The position numbers and the translations under genes are program-made. This document shows positions 1,848 through 8,491 of a stretch of DNA of 8,491 nt, piece by piece (the stretch's first letter is position 1; each line of letters starts with the position of its first letter). The notes under the pieces are model-generated. The model saw nothing but the letters and a program-made list of their open reading frames with translations. It searched no databases and was not told where the DNA came from. Origin of the DNA: Nitrospirota bacterium (GTDB lineage Bacteria > UBA2233); the NCBI GenBank assembly GCA_011620345.1, contig WOZJ01000039.1, forward strand, positions 1 through 8,491, given 5' to 3'.

Positions 1848-4070
1848 ATGAAGGAGATTGAAAGAAGGGCATTCTTGAAGGGCGTCGGCTGGCTCGTCGT
1901 CACGCTGGGTATCCTGCCCAGGCTTGGAGTGAAAGCCATGGGCGATGAAATACCCTTTGCTTTTTTAGGCGATTCCCTTGAGAAAACCCCCGGGCTCGAT
2001 GCCTGGCTTCTACTTGCCCAAGACGGTACGGTTGTAGCCTTTACAGGAAAGGCGGAACTTGGTCAGGGTATTAAAACGGCATTAGCACAAATTGTCGCCG
2101 ATGAGCTAACCCTCCCCATAGGGCGGATCCGAATCATCACGGCGGATACGGCGCTGACTCCCGACGAGGGCTACACGGTGGGCTCTCTTTCCGTCCATCA
2201 GTCCGGCACCGCTCTCAGAAAGGCAGCTGCAACCGCCCGCGCCATCCTGATCAAGCTGGCCGCAAAGCGCCTTAAGGTCCCGACAAGCAATCTCGTGCTC
2301 CAAGAAGGCATGGTCATCAAAAAAGGAGAAGATGGCGGGCTTCCCTATATCTCCCTCCTTGAAGGCGGACGCTTTTTGGCAAGAGTCAATCCAGATATCC
2401 CGACCCAGCCCTTCGGAGCCTACCGCAGCGTTGGCCAATCCGTTCCTAGGGAAGACCTCGAGGACATCGTCTCGGGCTCCAAGCGTTACGTCCATGATAT
2501 CGAGTTGCCGGGCATGCTCTATGGGGCTGTTGTCAGACCCCCCGGCTATGGAAGGCGCCTGCTCAAGCTCGATGAGGAGGGCTTTGGTAAGGAATGCTCA
2601 AATGTTAGGCTCGTCCGTAATGGGAGCTTCTTGGGAGTGATCGCTAAGGATACCTGTGGGGCTTTCCAAGCCGCCGCATGCCTAGAGCGTTATGCCATCT
2701 TTAGTGAGCCTCGAAAGCTTCCAAAGGAGGAAGCGATAGAAGAGACACTACGAACTCTCAAGTCAAAAACGAGTCTTGTTGCGAGAAGGGGCCGTGTAGA
2801 GGCTAGGGAGCTCAAGGCCGCCCGGATGCTGGAAGCCACATTCTTCAAGTCTTATCAGGCGCACGCTTCCATCGCCCCTTCAGCGGCCGTTGCCCTGTAT
2901 GAGAACGGTCGCTACCGGGTGTGGACGCATTCCCAGGGAGTATTCCCCCTAAGAAAAGACCTGGCGAAGGTTTTGCGAATCAAGGAAGAAGGCCTTCGTT
3001 TGAGTCATGTTGAGGGGCCTGGATGTTACGGCCACAACGGGGCCGACGATGTGGCGCTCGATGCCTGTTTACTCGCCCGGGCCGTTCCCGGAAAGCCTCT
3101 CAAGGTTCTCTGGTCACGATCGGACGAGTTTGCCTGGGAGCCTTTTGGAACCGCGATGGAGGTCCGCCTAAGGGCGTGCCTGGATGCAGGCGGGCGGGTA
3201 AGCGTTTGGCGTAGCGATGTCTGGACGGGCAGCCACGCTACGAGGCCCGGCATCGGCAAAAAAGACGAAACGTCCTTGATCGCCTCCCACGCGATCGAGC
3301 AATCGCTAAAGCGCGAGCCCGTTTTCGACCCAGGCGGCGGGGAACGTAACGCCCTTCCCTTGTACGCCTTTGAGGCCCTAGAGATCAAAAAACACCTGAT
3401 ACTAGAGCCGCCCCTGCGCGTTTCGGCTCTGCGCTCTTTGGGGGCGATGGCAAACGTGTTCGCGATCGAGTCGTTCATGGATATGCTCGCTCTTGAGGCG
3501 CAGAAAGACCCCGTCGCCTTTCGTATCGAGCATCTAAAAGACGAAAGAGCTGTAGCGCTTATCTTGCGGCTCGCCAAGGCCGTCAAATGGAGCCACCCCG
3601 GCAGGAAAACAGGCCTGGGCGTGGGTTTTTCTTTTGCCCGGTATAAGAACGCGGCCGCTTACGTTGCCGTGGTCGTATGGGTATCGGTCAACGAAAAAAC
3701 GAGGCAAATCCGCGTTCAAAGGGTCGTTGCGGGGGTTGACCCTGGGCTTGCAATCAACCCAGGCGGCGTCCGGAACCAAGCCGAGGGCGGCATTGTCCAA
3801 GCGCTCAGCATGGCGCTTAAAGAGCGTGTGCGCTTTGAGAAGGACGGGATTCAATCTCTCGATTGGCAAACATACCCGATCCTTGGCATCGAAGAGAGCC
3901 CAAAGGTCCGTGTGTTCGTATGGGGAGAGCCCCAAGCGCCTTCCGTGGGCGTTGGTGAGGCGCTCATGGGGCCGACGACTGCCGCTTTGGCCAATGCGGT
4001 GTTCGATGCTACCGGGGTTCGGCCGTTTCGCTTGCCGATTGGAACCCACTCAAACCCCTTTGGGCTGTAG
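1848..4070 (+). CDS. Tat-exported molybdopterin-binding large subunit, xanthine dehydrogenase family (nicotinate dehydrogenase/IorB-like)
   Basis: This 740-aa protein is a molybdenum hydroxylase large subunit of the permuted IorB/NicB type, which hydroxylates N-heterocycles or oxidises aldehydes. The ATG at 1848 is chosen because it gives a complete Tat signal: E-R6-R7-A-F-L-K, then a hydrophobic stretch to about residue 31. The ribosome binding site is weak. After the signal comes the N-terminal molybdopterin domain (E-L-G-Q-G-I-K-T-A-L), then the 'DI-x-LPGMLYG-x-V-x-RPP' segment, then A-L-R-S-L-G and E-S-F-M-D. The C-terminal G-V-G-E-A motif contains Glu704, the position of the catalytic base in this family. 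The usual glycine-rich GGGFGRR loop is replaced by G390-P-G-C-Y-G-H-N-G-A-D-D401, a form I recall from a NicB-like branch. No cytochrome c domain (CxxCH) is fused to it, unlike some NicB proteins. No [2Fe-2S] subunit lies beside it; the only one in the window is about 3.7 kb away on the opposite strand. Substrate is not predictable. Confidence 0.88.
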   Translation: MKEIERRAFLKGVGWLVVTLGILPRLGVKAMGDEIPFAFLGDSLEKTPGLDAWLLLAQDGTVVAFTGKAELGQGIKTALAQIVADELTLPIGRIRIITADTALTPDEGYTVGSLSVHQSGTALRKAAATARAILIKLAAKRLKVPTSNLVLQEGMVIKKGEDGGLPYISLLEGGRFLARVNPDIPTQPFGAYRSVGQSVPREDLEDIVSGSKRYVHDIELPGMLYGAVVRPPGYGRRLLKLDEEGFGKECSNVRLVRNGSFLGVIAKDTCGAFQAAACLERYAIFSEPRKLPKEEAIEETLRTLKSKTSLVARRGRVEARELKAARMLEATFFKSYQAHASIAPSAAVALYENGRYRVWTHSQGVFPLRKDLAKVLRIKEEGLRLSHVEGPGCYGHNGADDVALDACLLARAVPGKPLKVLWSRSDEFAWEPFGTAMEVRLRACLDAGGRVSVWRSDVWTGSHATRPGIGKKDETSLIASHAIEQSLKREPVFDPGGGERNALPLYAFEALEIKKHLILEPPLRVSALRSLGAMANVFAIESFMDMLALEAQKDPVAFRIEHLKDERAVALILRLAKAVKWSHPGRKTGLGVGFSFARYKNAAAYVAVVVWVSVNEKTRQIRVQRVVAGVDPGLAINPGGVRNQAEGGIVQALSMALKERVRFEKDGIQSLDWQTYPILGIEESPKVRVFVWGEPQAPSVGVGEALMGPTTAALANAVFDATGVRPFRLPIGTHSNPFGL

Positions 4071-4191: not shown

Positions 4192-4800
4192 TTATTCATC
4201 CTTCGGCCGTTCGAAAGCTTCCTTGGCCTCAAGGTAAACCTCGGGTGTGTCCAAATCTTGCAGGATTCCTTGGTCGTTAAGCTCCACAAAACGCACATGT
4301 TTAGCAAATCTTTTGATCAAGCATTTCAGCGTCTCTTCAGGCCGAAACGCTCTTAAGTATTTCATCGGAAGCAGGATGGGATGGCCCTTCTTTTCTTGGA
4401 ATATTGGAATCACTATTTGGGAGGCATTTTGATAAAATACGCCTGCCATTGTCTGGATTGTCTTCGGCTTCACGAGCGGGTGGTCGACGAGATGGACGAG
4501 GACGCCTTCCGTGTTGGCTTTTAACGCTTTAATCCCTACCCGTAAAGAATCCGCCATGGCTGAATTCGGTTTGGGGTTCGTTTCGACCCGTACTGGTAGG
4601 TCCTTGGCAAGCGCCTCGAGGCACAGACGAAGCCCGGGGTGAGTCACGAGGACGACCTTGCCCACTCCCCCGTTCAACATTGCCTCAAGGCAAAGGGTGA
4701 CTGCCGTCTTACCCTGGAAATCAAGCAGGGGCTTGGGACTTCCCATGCGCCTGGATAGCCCGGCTGCAAGAAGAAGCCCCGTTATGTTCGGACAGGTCAT
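4192..4800 (-). CDS. mocA: MocA-type molybdenum cofactor cytidylyltransferase
   Basis: This 202-aa nucleotidyltransferase (MobA-like NTP transferase fold) most likely transfers CMP from CTP to molybdopterin, giving the MCD cofactor used by bacterial xanthine dehydrogenase-family enzymes. The N-terminal signature is G-L-L-L-A-A-G-L-S-R-R-M-G-S-P-K (residues 8-23). Its LAAG form matches MocA rather than the LAGG of the GTP-using MobA. The strand-end aspartate is Asp106 in V-D-H-P, and a G-H-P motif follows. ATG 4800 is preferred because it places the nucleotide-binding strand directly after the start, as is usual. A TTG at 4845 in the same frame would add 15 atypical residues. The start has no clear Shine-Dalgarno and overlaps the end of xdhC by 80 nt in another frame, which suggests translational coupling. 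It is the last gene of the minus-strand operon and converges on the plus-strand large-subunit gene, 121 nt away. Confidence 0.85.
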   Translation of the reverse strand: MTCPNITGLLLAAGLSRRMGSPKPLLDFQGKTAVTLCLEAMLNGGVGKVVLVTHPGLRLCLEALAKDLPVRVETNPKPNSAMADSLRVGIKALKANTEGVLVHLVDHPLVKPKTIQTMAGVFYQNASQIVIPIFQEKKGHPILLPMKYLRAFRPEETLKCLIKRFAKHVRFVELNDQGILQDLDTPEVYLEAKEAFERPKDE

Positions 4801-5569
4801 AGCTACGACGTAGCTGAATGATTTCGGCAAGGATAGAAATGGCAATCTCTTGTGGCGTTACGGCACCGATGGGCAACCCGACGGGTGTTCGGATTCGCGC
4901 GATGTCTTCCTTGGAAAACCCCCTTTCTTGAAGAAGGTCGAACAATGCTGCACGCTTGCTCTTCGAGCCGACAAGCCCGATGTAACGGGCCGGGGTTTTG
5001 AGCGCGGCAAGAACCACGTTGAAATCGTGGGTATGACCAAACGTAGCCACGACAATGCAGCTGGATGGCCCTACATCGACCCCTTGGAATGGGTTGGCAT
5101 AATCGATAAGAACGGCCTTGATCCCCCCCTCTAGCTTTTCCTTGGCCCGTTCGAGGTATTCAACCCTGCTATCTAAAAGTACCATCCGAAAACCAAGGGG
5201 TTTCGCAAAAACGGCGAGCGCTTGCCCGATATGGCCTGCCCCCGCAACGATCAACTCGGGGTTGGGTAAAAGGGGCTCGATGTAGACCTTTGCCGTGCCC
5301 CCGCACATCGAATCGTTCTCTTTCGAGAGCTCGAGTGAAAGCAGAGTTGAGCGCTCATCTTCAAGCGCAAGAAGGGCCTGCTCGATCACGCCAAGCTCCA
5401 TCTTGCCCCCGCCTACCGTTCCTAAGATCGTACCGTCCTCATAAACGAGCATCTTGGCCCCGGGCCTTTGCGGGACAGATCCGGCTACTTCGACGACGAC
5501 CGCGAGCGCAACGCGCCTTCTTTCCCTAACGGCGGCAGCGAGCTCCTCGAAGAAGGCCCCCTCTTCCAT
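4721..5569 (-). CDS. xdhC: XdhC/CoxI-family molybdenum cofactor maturation protein
   Basis: This 282-aa cytoplasmic protein belongs to the XdhC/CoxI family, which binds molybdenum cofactor, supports its sulfuration and delivers it to xanthine dehydrogenase-family enzymes. The N-terminal domain has G-S-V-P-Q-R-P-G-A-K-M (30-40), G-G-G-K-M-E (53-58) and the conserved M-C89-G-G with V-Y-I-E-P after it. The Rossmann half begins at G110-A-G-H-I-G115. The C-terminal signature P-V-G-L-P-I-G-A-V-T-P-Q-E-I-A with I-L-A-E-I is present. The start is supported by GAGG (complement of 5577-5580) seven nt before ATG. It begins 13 nt after the large-subunit stop. The conserved family sequence ends at about residue 256; the last 26 residues are a Ser/Ala-rich tail encoded entirely within the overlap with mocA, in another frame, and look non-homologous. 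Confidence 0.92.
   Translation of the reverse strand: MEEGAFFEELAAAVRERRRVALAVVVEVAGSVPQRPGAKMLVYEDGTILGTVGGGKMELGVIEQALLALEDERSTLLSLELSKENDSMCGGTAKVYIEPLLPNPELIVAGAGHIGQALAVFAKPLGFRMVLLDSRVEYLERAKEKLEGGIKAVLIDYANPFQGVDVGPSSCIVVATFGHTHDFNVVLAALKTPARYIGLVGSKSKRAALFDLLQERGFSKEDIARIRTPVGLPIGAVTPQEIAISILAEIIQLRRSYDLSEHNGASSCSRAIQAHGKSQAPA
4801..4815 (-). promoter_or_regulatory. Perfect palindrome abutting the mocA start codon
   Basis: AGCTACG and CGTAGCT form perfect 7-bp arms around a single central base, immediately before the mocA ATG. As RNA this could fold as a 6-bp stem with a 3-nt loop, covering the place where a ribosome binding site would sit. It lies inside the xdhC coding region (codons for L-R-R-S), so a ribosome finishing xdhC would open it. 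The palindrome is directly visible; a role in translational coupling is inference. Confidence 0.35.
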
Positions 5570-5582
5570 CCTTTGTCCTCTT

Positions 5583-7766
5583 TTAAGCCTTTCCGAGCGC
5601 TTCCTTGACGCCTTTGGGTGTCATAGGCAGGGTTCGGACCCTCGCACCAGCCGCCCGAAATACACCGTTTGCTACGGCGGGGGCAATGGGCGGCACGCCA
5701 GGCTCTCCGATTCCCCCTTGGGGCTCGTTGGTGTTGAGGATCTGGACTTCGATCGAGGGCGCTTCGGGCATCCGAAGGAGTCGGTAGGTGTCAAAATTCT
5801 TCGATTCCACCCCTCCACCCCCAAACCTCACGCGCTCAAAAAGGGCCGCGCTAAGCCCCATCAGGATTCCTCCCTGAATCTGGGCTTCGATGATGTCGGG
5901 GTTCACGTAAGGCCCGCAGTCCACCACGGCCCATACGTCATGCACACGGACTATACCCGTTTCTTTATCCACGCTAACCTCGGCCACTTCCCCTACAAAG
6001 CTTCCGAACGAGAAGTGCAACGCAAGCCCCTTGGTCCGGCCTTCCTTGGCAGGCTCATGCCATTTGGCTTTCTCGCCTAGCGCCTCCAGCACCCTCCTGG
6101 CCCTTGGGTTATCCTTAAGGAGTGCAAGCCGAAACTCGAGTGGGTCACGGCCCGCAAGATAGGCCATCTCGTCCATGAACGATTCCACGACAAAGGCGTT
6201 ATGGCTGTGCCCTACGCTCCTCCAGTAGCCCACGGGAATCGGCATGTCTACGCGGACATACTCGACAAAGAGGTTGGGAATGCTATAAAACGTATTCTCC
6301 ACGCCTTCGATCGCCGATGAGTCTATTCCGTCCTTTAGGTCGTTTGGGTTCCACCTGGACGAAATCGAGGGAACGGCCATCCTGTGCGACCAGGCGACGA
6401 GGTTGCCTTGAGTATCCAATCCACCAATAACCCGAGCGGCGTTTCCCGGCCGGAAGAAGTCATAAGCAATGTCCTCTTCGCGGGTCCATACCAGCTTGAC
6501 GGGCTTCCCGGAGGCCTTGGAGAGGCCTACGGCCTCCTTGACAAAATCAACTTCTGCACGCCTGCCAAACCCTCCCCCCAAGAACGTCGTATGAATAAAG
6601 ACGTTGTCAGGGCTCACACCAGCGACTTCGGCGGCGGCCGCTTGGCTCATCGTCTGGTTTTGTGTCGGCACCCAGACGTCTACTTTGTGTTTTTGGACGT
6701 ACGCGACGCAGTTCATCGGCTCGAGCGTCGCATGGGCGAGGTACGGCAAGAAATAGCTCGCTTCGAGGCGTTTCGCGGCCCCATCAAGGGCCTTTGGCAC
6801 GTTGCCCGCGTGCTTAACCTCGACGCCGTTCTTTTGCAAGTCCTCGCGAAATATCCTCTCGACAAGAGCATCGTCGAGGTCGGCCTGAACCCCCTTCCCC
6901 CACTGAACTCCAAGCACAGACCTCCCTTTCCAAGCGGAATCGAGCGAGTCGGCCAGGATGCCCACACCCGACTCGAGGACATGAACTTGACGAACGCCCA
7001 GGATTGTTTTCGCCCTCGTCTCGTCAAGCTTTTCTAGCTTTGCTCCGAATGCTGGAGGCCTTGCGATGCTTGCATATAGAATGCCTGGCAAGAAGACATC
7101 CAGTCCGAACTGTGCCTTACCATCGACCTTGCATGCCGTATCGAAGCGCTTGAGAGGCTTTCCAATGTAATGAAATTCTTGTGGATCTTTGATGCGCGGG
7201 TTCGAAGGTAATGGTCGCTTGGCGGCATCTTTCACGAGCTCCCCATAGCTCAGCCCATGGTCTTTGCCCTTGGCGAACACACGTCCATGTTTGGCGTAGC
7301 ATACGCTCGGCTCGGCCCCTAACTTCTTCGCTCCCACCTCGACGAGCATTTGCCTGGCCTGGGCGGCAGCAAACCTTAAGACGGGGTACATATGCCGGAT
7401 GGACGTACTTCCTCCCGTCATCTGCATACCAAACCCAGGGTCTTTAAAGGCCTCGTCGGCCGGTGCGGTCCTGACGGTGACCTGACCCAAATCGACCTCG
7501 AGCTCCTCGGCCACGATCGTGGGCAGGGCCGTATACACCCCTTGGCCCATTTCGGATTTGTTGACCAGGATGACGGCACGGCCATCTTCGCGGATGAAGA
7601 ACCACGCAACAGGGCGAAACCCTTTACTTTCAACATCCTTCGCCAGCAAGACCTCCAAGCCCCAAGGAGTGGTTACAATCGCCAGCCCAAGCCCTGTTAT
7701 CGAGATCGCGCCCCGAAGAAAGGCCCTTCTGTTCACGGGCCCCAGAATGGTAGGGTTCGTTTCCAT
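5583..7766 (-). CDS. Tat-exported molybdopterin-binding large subunit, isoquinoline 1-oxidoreductase beta (IorB)-like
   Basis: This 727-aa protein is the catalytic subunit of a two-subunit molybdenum hydroxylase of the IorAB/aldehyde dehydrogenase type. The N-terminus carries a Tat signal, N-R-R-A-F-L-R-G, followed by a hydrophobic segment, so it is exported folded with cofactor. Next come E-M-G-Q-G-V-Y-T-A-L and T-G-G-S-T-S, the first molybdopterin-binding segments of this permuted family, then L-P-G-I-L-Y-A with R-P-P. The classical loop G-G-G-F-G-R-R occupies 397-403, followed by P-V-K-L-V-W-T-R-E-E-D. The C-terminal G-I-G-E-P-G contains Glu688, the expected catalytic base. ATG 7766 has AAGGGG (complement of 7773-7778) six nt upstream. 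It lies 17 nt after the [2Fe-2S] subunit gene and 13 nt before xdhC, the usual order for such an enzyme and its maturation factor. It aligns by eye along its length with the product of 1848-4070, so the two are paralogues. Substrate is unknown; heterocycle and aldehyde oxidation are both possible. Confidence 0.92.
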   Translation of the reverse strand: METNPTILGPVNRRAFLRGAISITGLGLAIVTTPWGLEVLLAKDVESKGFRPVAWFFIREDGRAVILVNKSEMGQGVYTALPTIVAEELEVDLGQVTVRTAPADEAFKDPGFGMQMTGGSTSIRHMYPVLRFAAAQARQMLVEVGAKKLGAEPSVCYAKHGRVFAKGKDHGLSYGELVKDAAKRPLPSNPRIKDPQEFHYIGKPLKRFDTACKVDGKAQFGLDVFLPGILYASIARPPAFGAKLEKLDETRAKTILGVRQVHVLESGVGILADSLDSAWKGRSVLGVQWGKGVQADLDDALVERIFREDLQKNGVEVKHAGNVPKALDGAAKRLEASYFLPYLAHATLEPMNCVAYVQKHKVDVWVPTQNQTMSQAAAAEVAGVSPDNVFIHTTFLGGGFGRRAEVDFVKEAVGLSKASGKPVKLVWTREEDIAYDFFRPGNAARVIGGLDTQGNLVAWSHRMAVPSISSRWNPNDLKDGIDSSAIEGVENTFYSIPNLFVEYVRVDMPIPVGYWRSVGHSHNAFVVESFMDEMAYLAGRDPLEFRLALLKDNPRARRVLEALGEKAKWHEPAKEGRTKGLALHFSFGSFVGEVAEVSVDKETGIVRVHDVWAVVDCGPYVNPDIIEAQIQGGILMGLSAALFERVRFGGGGVESKNFDTYRLLRMPEAPSIEVQILNTNEPQGGIGEPGVPPIAPAVANGVFRAAGARVRTLPMTPKGVKEALGKA

Positions 7767-7783: not shown

Positions 7784-8251
7784 TTACTCCTGGACCGAGG
7801 TAGCCAATGCGACATCAATGGCCTCTAGGATCCTCGGGTAGGTGCCACACCTGCACAGGTTTCCTGCCATCGCTTGGACAACTTTCTCACGGGTTATCTT
7901 AGGGTTTTCATTCAGCACGGCAATGGCCTGCATGATTTGGCCTGGCTGACAGTAACCGCATTGGGGAACTTGCCTTTGAACCCACGCCCGTTTGACGGGG
8001 TGGTCGGATGGAATGCCTTCGATCGTCGTCACACGCTTTCCGAAGGCATCGCCCACCGGGACCGAGCAAGAACGAACCGCCTTGCCTTCGAGATGAACCG
8101 TACAGGCGCCACACTGGGCAATGCCGCAGCCAAATTTCGTCCCAGTTAATTTCAAATGCTCTCGAATGACCCAAAGCAACGGAACATCCGGGCTAACGCC
8201 CACCTCGTAGGTTTTCCCGTTCACAATGAGGGTTGATTTTGCCTTGGGCAT
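7784..8251 (-). CDS. [2Fe-2S] small subunit of molybdenum hydroxylase (IorA/CoxS-like)
   Basis: This 155-aa protein is the electron-transfer subunit that carries electrons from the molybdenum centre to an external acceptor. The N-terminal ferredoxin-like domain has C42-x4-C47-x2-C50-x11-C62, the plant-type [2Fe-2S] site. The C-terminal helical domain has C98-x2-C101 and C133-x-C135, the second cluster. All eight ligands are present, and the length is normal for this family. ATG 8251 is chosen because a very strong Shine-Dalgarno precedes it and family members begin just before the first strand (here L-I-V-N-G). The frame stays open upstream to a TTG at 8464, but that would add 71 unrelated residues reading through the intron-like element. 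It has no signal peptide and presumably leaves the cell attached to a Tat-bearing large subunit. It is the first gene of the minus-strand operon and the only visible iron-sulfur partner for either large subunit. Confidence 0.95.
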
Positions 8252-8256
8252 TTTTT

Positions 8257-8266
8257 CCCTCCTCCC
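8257..8266 (-). promoter_or_regulatory. Strong Shine-Dalgarno of the [2Fe-2S] subunit gene
   Basis: The complement reads GGGAGGAGGG and ends five nt before ATG 8251, with an A-rich spacer. This is the strongest ribosome binding site in the window and decides the start against in-frame ATG 8311 and TTG 8464, neither of which has one. Confidence 0.85.
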
Positions 8267-8377
8267 GATCGCTTCAAGTTTAACAACGGGCTTTATTTTA
8301 ACATGCTCCATCTTTTCAAAAGAACAAGGTTGTCGAGTAACCGTGTAAGATTCGTGCCTTGAGTCAAGTCGATTAAG

Positions 8378-8491
8378 GTCGAAGGGGGACGGCACATCTC
8401 TGTGCCATACTCTCCTAAGAACCCGGAGTGCGAGTTTTCTCGCACCGGGCTCAAGCCTCTGCAAAGCCCCCTACGACAGGAGCCGGCATTT
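8378..8491 (-). mobile_element. 3' end of a group II intron (partial, runs off the window)
   Basis: Read on the minus strand, the segment GAGGCTT leads into a 34-nt domain V-like hairpin, then the linker T-T-A-G-G, a domain VI-like hairpin with a GAGA loop (8391-8406), a C-run and a plausible 3' end at T-T-C-G-A-C (8378). This order is that of bacterial group II intron 3' ends. The rest of the ribozyme and any reverse transcriptase would lie beyond 8491, so an intact intron cannot be told from a 3' fragment. The domain VI outer stem is poorly paired and no bulged branch-point A is obvious, which may indicate decay. The element is co-oriented with the molybdoenzyme operon and its proposed end is 126 nt before the first gene. 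The identification rests on remembered consensus, not on a covariance search. Confidence 0.6.
8419..8452 (-). ncRNA. Group II intron domain V-like catalytic hairpin
   Basis: On the minus strand this is a 34-nt element beginning G-A-G-C and ending G-T-T-C. Eight base pairs (GAGCCCGG with CCGGGTTC) form the lower stem, including a G·U pair at the third position, where the AGC catalytic triad lies. A 2-nt CT bulge on the 3' side follows, then a 6-bp upper stem (TGCGAG with CTCGCA) closed by an AAAA loop. Length, bulge side and size, triad and ends all match domain V. The usual GNRA tetraloop is replaced by AAAA or a variant of it. Confidence 0.65.

Follow-up and report, generated by a model that had tools for sequence, protein, structure and literature searches.

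In a mobile group II intron the bulged adenosine of domain VI attacks through its 2'-OH during splicing, domain V lies in the catalytic core, and the element moves by retrohoming with the help of the reverse transcriptase (RT) that it encodes. The closest relative identified for the element described here lies on plasmid B of Aquincola tertiaricarbonis RN12 (NZ_CP097638.1). Its ltrA gene specifies a protein (WP_250196020.1) with RVT_N, RVT_1, GIIM and HNH domains; its domain V has a GAAA loop and a U.G wobble, and its domain VI is intact with a bulged A. RT-GIIM-HNH introns are also carried by Yersinia, rhizobia, Gallionella/Nitrotoga and Pseudomonas phage phi3. These have a 77-nt unit composed of domains V and VI, are of the TTGAGC...GTTCTTAGG type and mostly end in GAC; the GNRA loop and the branch A are kept in all of them. 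A search of the literature for the CL1/chloroplast-like class combined with HNH found no such description.

The window (the whole stretch of DNA analysed, 8,491 nucleotides) comprises all 8491 bp of contig WOZJ01000039.1 from a Nitrospirota genome of 72 contigs and 1.80 Mb (96.8% complete). The sequence stops at 8491, within the element, 37 nt before the domain V-domain VI unit. The features of interest, from the contig end into the downstream operon, are as follows.

8455..8491, minus strand: post-ORF segment of 37 nt, from the stop of the intron ORF (itself missing) to the domain V-domain VI unit; contig end (gapless alignment to NZ_CP097638.1)
8419..8452, minus strand: domain V, 34 nt (RF00029 and family alignment of 53-76 relatives)
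8381..8415, minus strand: domain VI (family alignment and folding)
8378..8380, minus strand: intron 3' terminus GAC (homology; 77-nt domain V-domain VI unit)
8252..8377, minus strand: 3' exon side, the 126-bp leader that separates the intron end from the ATG of the small-subunit gene, AT-richer (about 41% GC)
7784..8251, minus strand: Fer2/Fer2_2 [2Fe-2S] subunit of a molybdenum hydroxylase, IorA-like (Pfam PF01799, PF00111)
5583..7766, minus strand: molybdopterin-binding large subunit, IorB-like (Pfam PF20256, PF02738)
4721..5569, minus strand: XdhC/CoxI-family maturation factor (Pfam PF13478, PF02625)
4192..4845, minus strand: MobA-like NTP transferase, MocA/YgfJ-like molybdenum cofactor cytidylyltransferase (Pfam PF12804; match to TIGR03310 below cut-off)

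Using positions 8491-8362 (minus strand) as the query, a blastn search of plasmids returned 96 records. The best match, to the Aquincola plasmid, is 81.1% identical over 106 nt (8491-8386), is ungapped (E 1e-19) and covers the post-ORF segment, domain V and most of domain VI. Among the plasmid matches listed, the annotated feature, wherever there is one, is ltrA (group II intron reverse transcriptase/maturase). The last base of the Aquincola ltrA stop codon aligns with 8491, so the contig stops almost exactly at the expected end of the intron protein gene; the ORF of the window copy would fall outside the contig.

To define the family, GTDB contigs were scanned with the Aquincola RT protein, giving 375 relatives of which 80 were kept (mostly proteobacterial, the remainder including Chloroflexota and Bacteroidota). 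Introns related to the window copy are thus widespread among proteobacteria. The stretch directly 3' of the RT ORF in the fetched relatives aligns to the window. A recognisable 34-nt domain V 3' of the RT, followed by domain VI, is present in 76 relatives (L038-L041 included), and 53 distinct 77-nt relatives formed the set for alignment and for a covariance model. No gaps are needed to align the window with these 53. It shares with the Aquincola-type lineage a homologous post-ORF segment, domain V, domain VI and the same 77-nt spacing. A C-G pair at alignment columns 8/31 is common to the window and the Aquincola intron and occurs in no other relative. An exact-type pattern scan of the GTDB contigs for the closest type of domain V found none, and no relative nearer than Aquincola.

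Three further observations were made among the sequences collected. In several other genomes (L009, L010, L011, L021, L022, L023, L024, L027, L032 and others) a contig edge lies within about 10-200 bases of domain V, which suggests that assemblies commonly break at group II introns. About 200 bases from its contig start, L017 (positions 197-267; G087:C30) has a domain V of the TTGAGC...GTTCTTAGG type whose stem is divergent; this piece was seen without an RT ORF and is possibly another relic or cut-off copy. Finally, a 545-kb viral contig (IMGVR_UViG_3300037484_000435, L037 positions 52-95) includes a canonical domain V and domain VI of the TTGAGC...GTTCTTAGG type. These are preceded by a stretch that resembles the C-terminus of an intron RT (FNPAWDEYFELREA), without HNH; the element is apparently a group II intron carried on the contig of a huge phage.

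The match of the window to a group II intron is far beyond chance. RF00029 (Intron_gpII) aligns over its full model length with 8454-8372 on the minus strand (39.4 bits, E 4.1e-5). This is 0.6 bit below the curated gathering score of 40, plausibly because of the degenerate positions in the window copy. The covariance model built from the 53 relatives gives the window 62.1 bits (E 7e-12 in 61 kb, about 2e-10 over its own genome) and intact relatives 91-97 bits, including L004, which was left out of model building. The family structure of domains V and VI is itself backed by covariation, with 251 two-sided changes where shuffles give 71, and the two domains of the window fold with a z-score of -5.5 relative to shuffled sequences.

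The original prediction, made from the sequence of the window, was of a group II intron tail just upstream of a molybdoenzyme operon. Homology, RF00029 and Pfam all bear this out, the tail comprising domain V, domain VI and the 37-nt post-ORF stretch. The 34-nt domain V was correctly placed: it has GAGC...GTTC ends, a G.U in the AGC triad, all 13 family helix pairs and, in a single-sequence fold, a bulge of 2 nt on the 3' side, six pairs down from the loop. The triad, asymmetric 3' bulge and basal and distal helices are as in group II introns. The second hairpin said to follow it corresponds to domain VI, in which 12 of the 14 family pairs are formed. The claim that the architecture of domain V is exact goes too far, since the loop is AAAA (8438-8435) and not GNRA (GAAA to AAAA), and at position 9/26 U.U replaces the U.G wobble. 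The intact intron architecture that this claim implied has to be given up, several invariant positions being broken.

The left bound of the predicted tail, 8378, coincides with the 3' end derived from homology. The 77-nt unit that it delimits equals in length that of nearly all distinct relatives, and its terminus (...GAC) conforms to the AY rule for group II introns. Rfam places the end at 8372, which would put the A bulge within UCGACCU; this alternative was rejected because the ungapped 77-nt family alignment ends the intron at 8378. The six additional bases most likely reflect the degeneracy of domain VI and not real intron sequence.

The window copy departs from its relatives at positions that these conserve. 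The domain V loop is GNRA in all 76 relatives, and 75 of them have U.G as the 9/26 wobble. The bulged position of domain VI is A in all 76 (74 UACYC, 2 CACCC) but C (8384) in the window. Five of the 22 columns that are invariant in the 53 relatives are broken (G17A, G42A, T70C, A71C and C72T), including those of the GNRA loop and the branch-point A. When each relative is left out in turn, the number of broken columns is 0 in 49 of them and at most 2, a yardstick biased towards functional introns since the relatives were chosen via intact RTs. Base-call or assembly errors near the contig end may also affect the changed positions. At the same time, 25 of the 27 family helix pairs are retained, and at pair 42/72 a two-sided change from G-C to A-U is found in the window and in none of the relatives.

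In our view the contig end is likely to be the decayed 3' remnant of a member of this known lineage of HNH-type group II introns, or else the end of a longer decaying copy that the contig cuts off. The ancestor would have been a retroelement encoding a protein with RT, maturase (GIIM) and HNH domains, whose ORF stopped about 40 nt before domain V. A copy would have inserted in sense into the leader of the molybdenum hydroxylase operon. In the window copy the domain V GNRA loop and U.G wobble, a pair at the base of the domain VI stem and the branch adenosine have been mutated, most helices still being paired. The window copy is probably dead, as judged from the mutation of several otherwise invariant catalytic positions; the ORF and domains I-IV may or may not persist past the contig end. 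Loss of the tetraloop, the wobble and the branch A with the helices kept should be the look of a fairly recently inactivated copy. The 25 retained pairs, one of them kept through a novel two-sided change, imply either that decay is recent or that some constraint is left, and to that extent count against a remnant.

It is unlikely that the window instead holds the end of a complete, active intron of the same lineage, with its 5' part on an unbinned short contig and with splicing by hydrolysis or from a branch nucleotide other than A. The contig does break inside the element, as intron-bearing contigs do in other genomes, and most pairs of domains V and VI are intact. Branching uses the bulged A of domain VI, but some group II introns splice by hydrolysis, without a branch (PMC7161350), so the loss of the branch A alone is no proof of inactivity. 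It is the combination that argues for inactivity: no relative shows the joint loss of the GNRA loop, the U.G wobble and the branch A. In addition, no RT was found anywhere in the assembly, which is 97% complete: a search with RVT_1 gave 0 candidates, GIIM gave none above threshold and the Aquincola RT gave no match at E 1. The complete Aquincola intron matched only the known 106 nt, and RF00029 and the family covariance model found no domain V other than that of the window. The last 22 and last 192 bases of the contig occur nowhere else in the genome, giving no sign of a second copy or contig overlap. It is highly improbable that the window copy is a functional group II intron variant that has AAAA as its domain V loop and C at its branch site and splices without a branched intermediate, in a lineage whose sampled relatives all keep the branch A.

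The intron tail lies in sense with the molybdenum hydroxylase operon, which we take to be of the IorA/IorB type from the domain order of molybdenum hydroxylase subunits. The nearest gene 3' of the tail is that of the Fer2/Fer2_2 subunit, whose ATG is at 8251, 126 bp from the intron end. On the same contig, a second molybdopterin-binding large subunit is encoded at 1848-4070 (plus strand), in the opposite orientation to that at 5583-7766 (minus strand). The two are of related type (34% identical) and flank the XdhC and cytidylyltransferase genes; the contig has only one [2Fe-2S] subunit.

The original prediction also placed the tail where the operon promoter might be, pointing in the direction of the operon, and proposed an effect on expression. 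The orientation and proximity stand, but a scan for promoter- and terminator-like sites gave none above chance, and the proposed effect is unsupported. The same result weighs against co-option of the remnant as a leader element of the operon (an RNA structure or a promoter), to which we give very little credence despite its sense orientation close to the start codon and its largely kept helices. Ancestry accounts for the kept structure. Moreover, a congeneric genome (G001) contains a related molybdenum hydroxylase (large subunit 46% identical in protein, small-subunit gene 75% in DNA) but no match to the family covariance model or to window DNA 8250-8491, and the leader of its own small-subunit gene is different.

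A chance hairpin or a mis-binned or chimeric contig end is scarcely credible: the position at the contig end, the G+C content (60% in 8378-8491 against 41% in the leader) and a nearest relative on a betaproteobacterial plasmid would fit it, but the E-values obtained with RF00029, blastn and the family covariance model exclude chance, a chimeric join precisely at the natural 3' end of an intron is unlikely, and the operon counterpart in the congener indicates that the contig belongs to the genome.

As a probable decayed remnant, the window copy adds little beyond annotation: another degenerate group II intron is put on record, here from a bacterium with a small genome, in whose assembly neither a further group II intron nor an RT turned up. 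Truncated copies make up most bacterial group II introns (PMC4028801), so that a relic is the ordinary expectation, and the window copy is consistent with this picture. It also illustrates how relics of this kind can fall less than one bit short of the RF00029 cut-off and so be missed.
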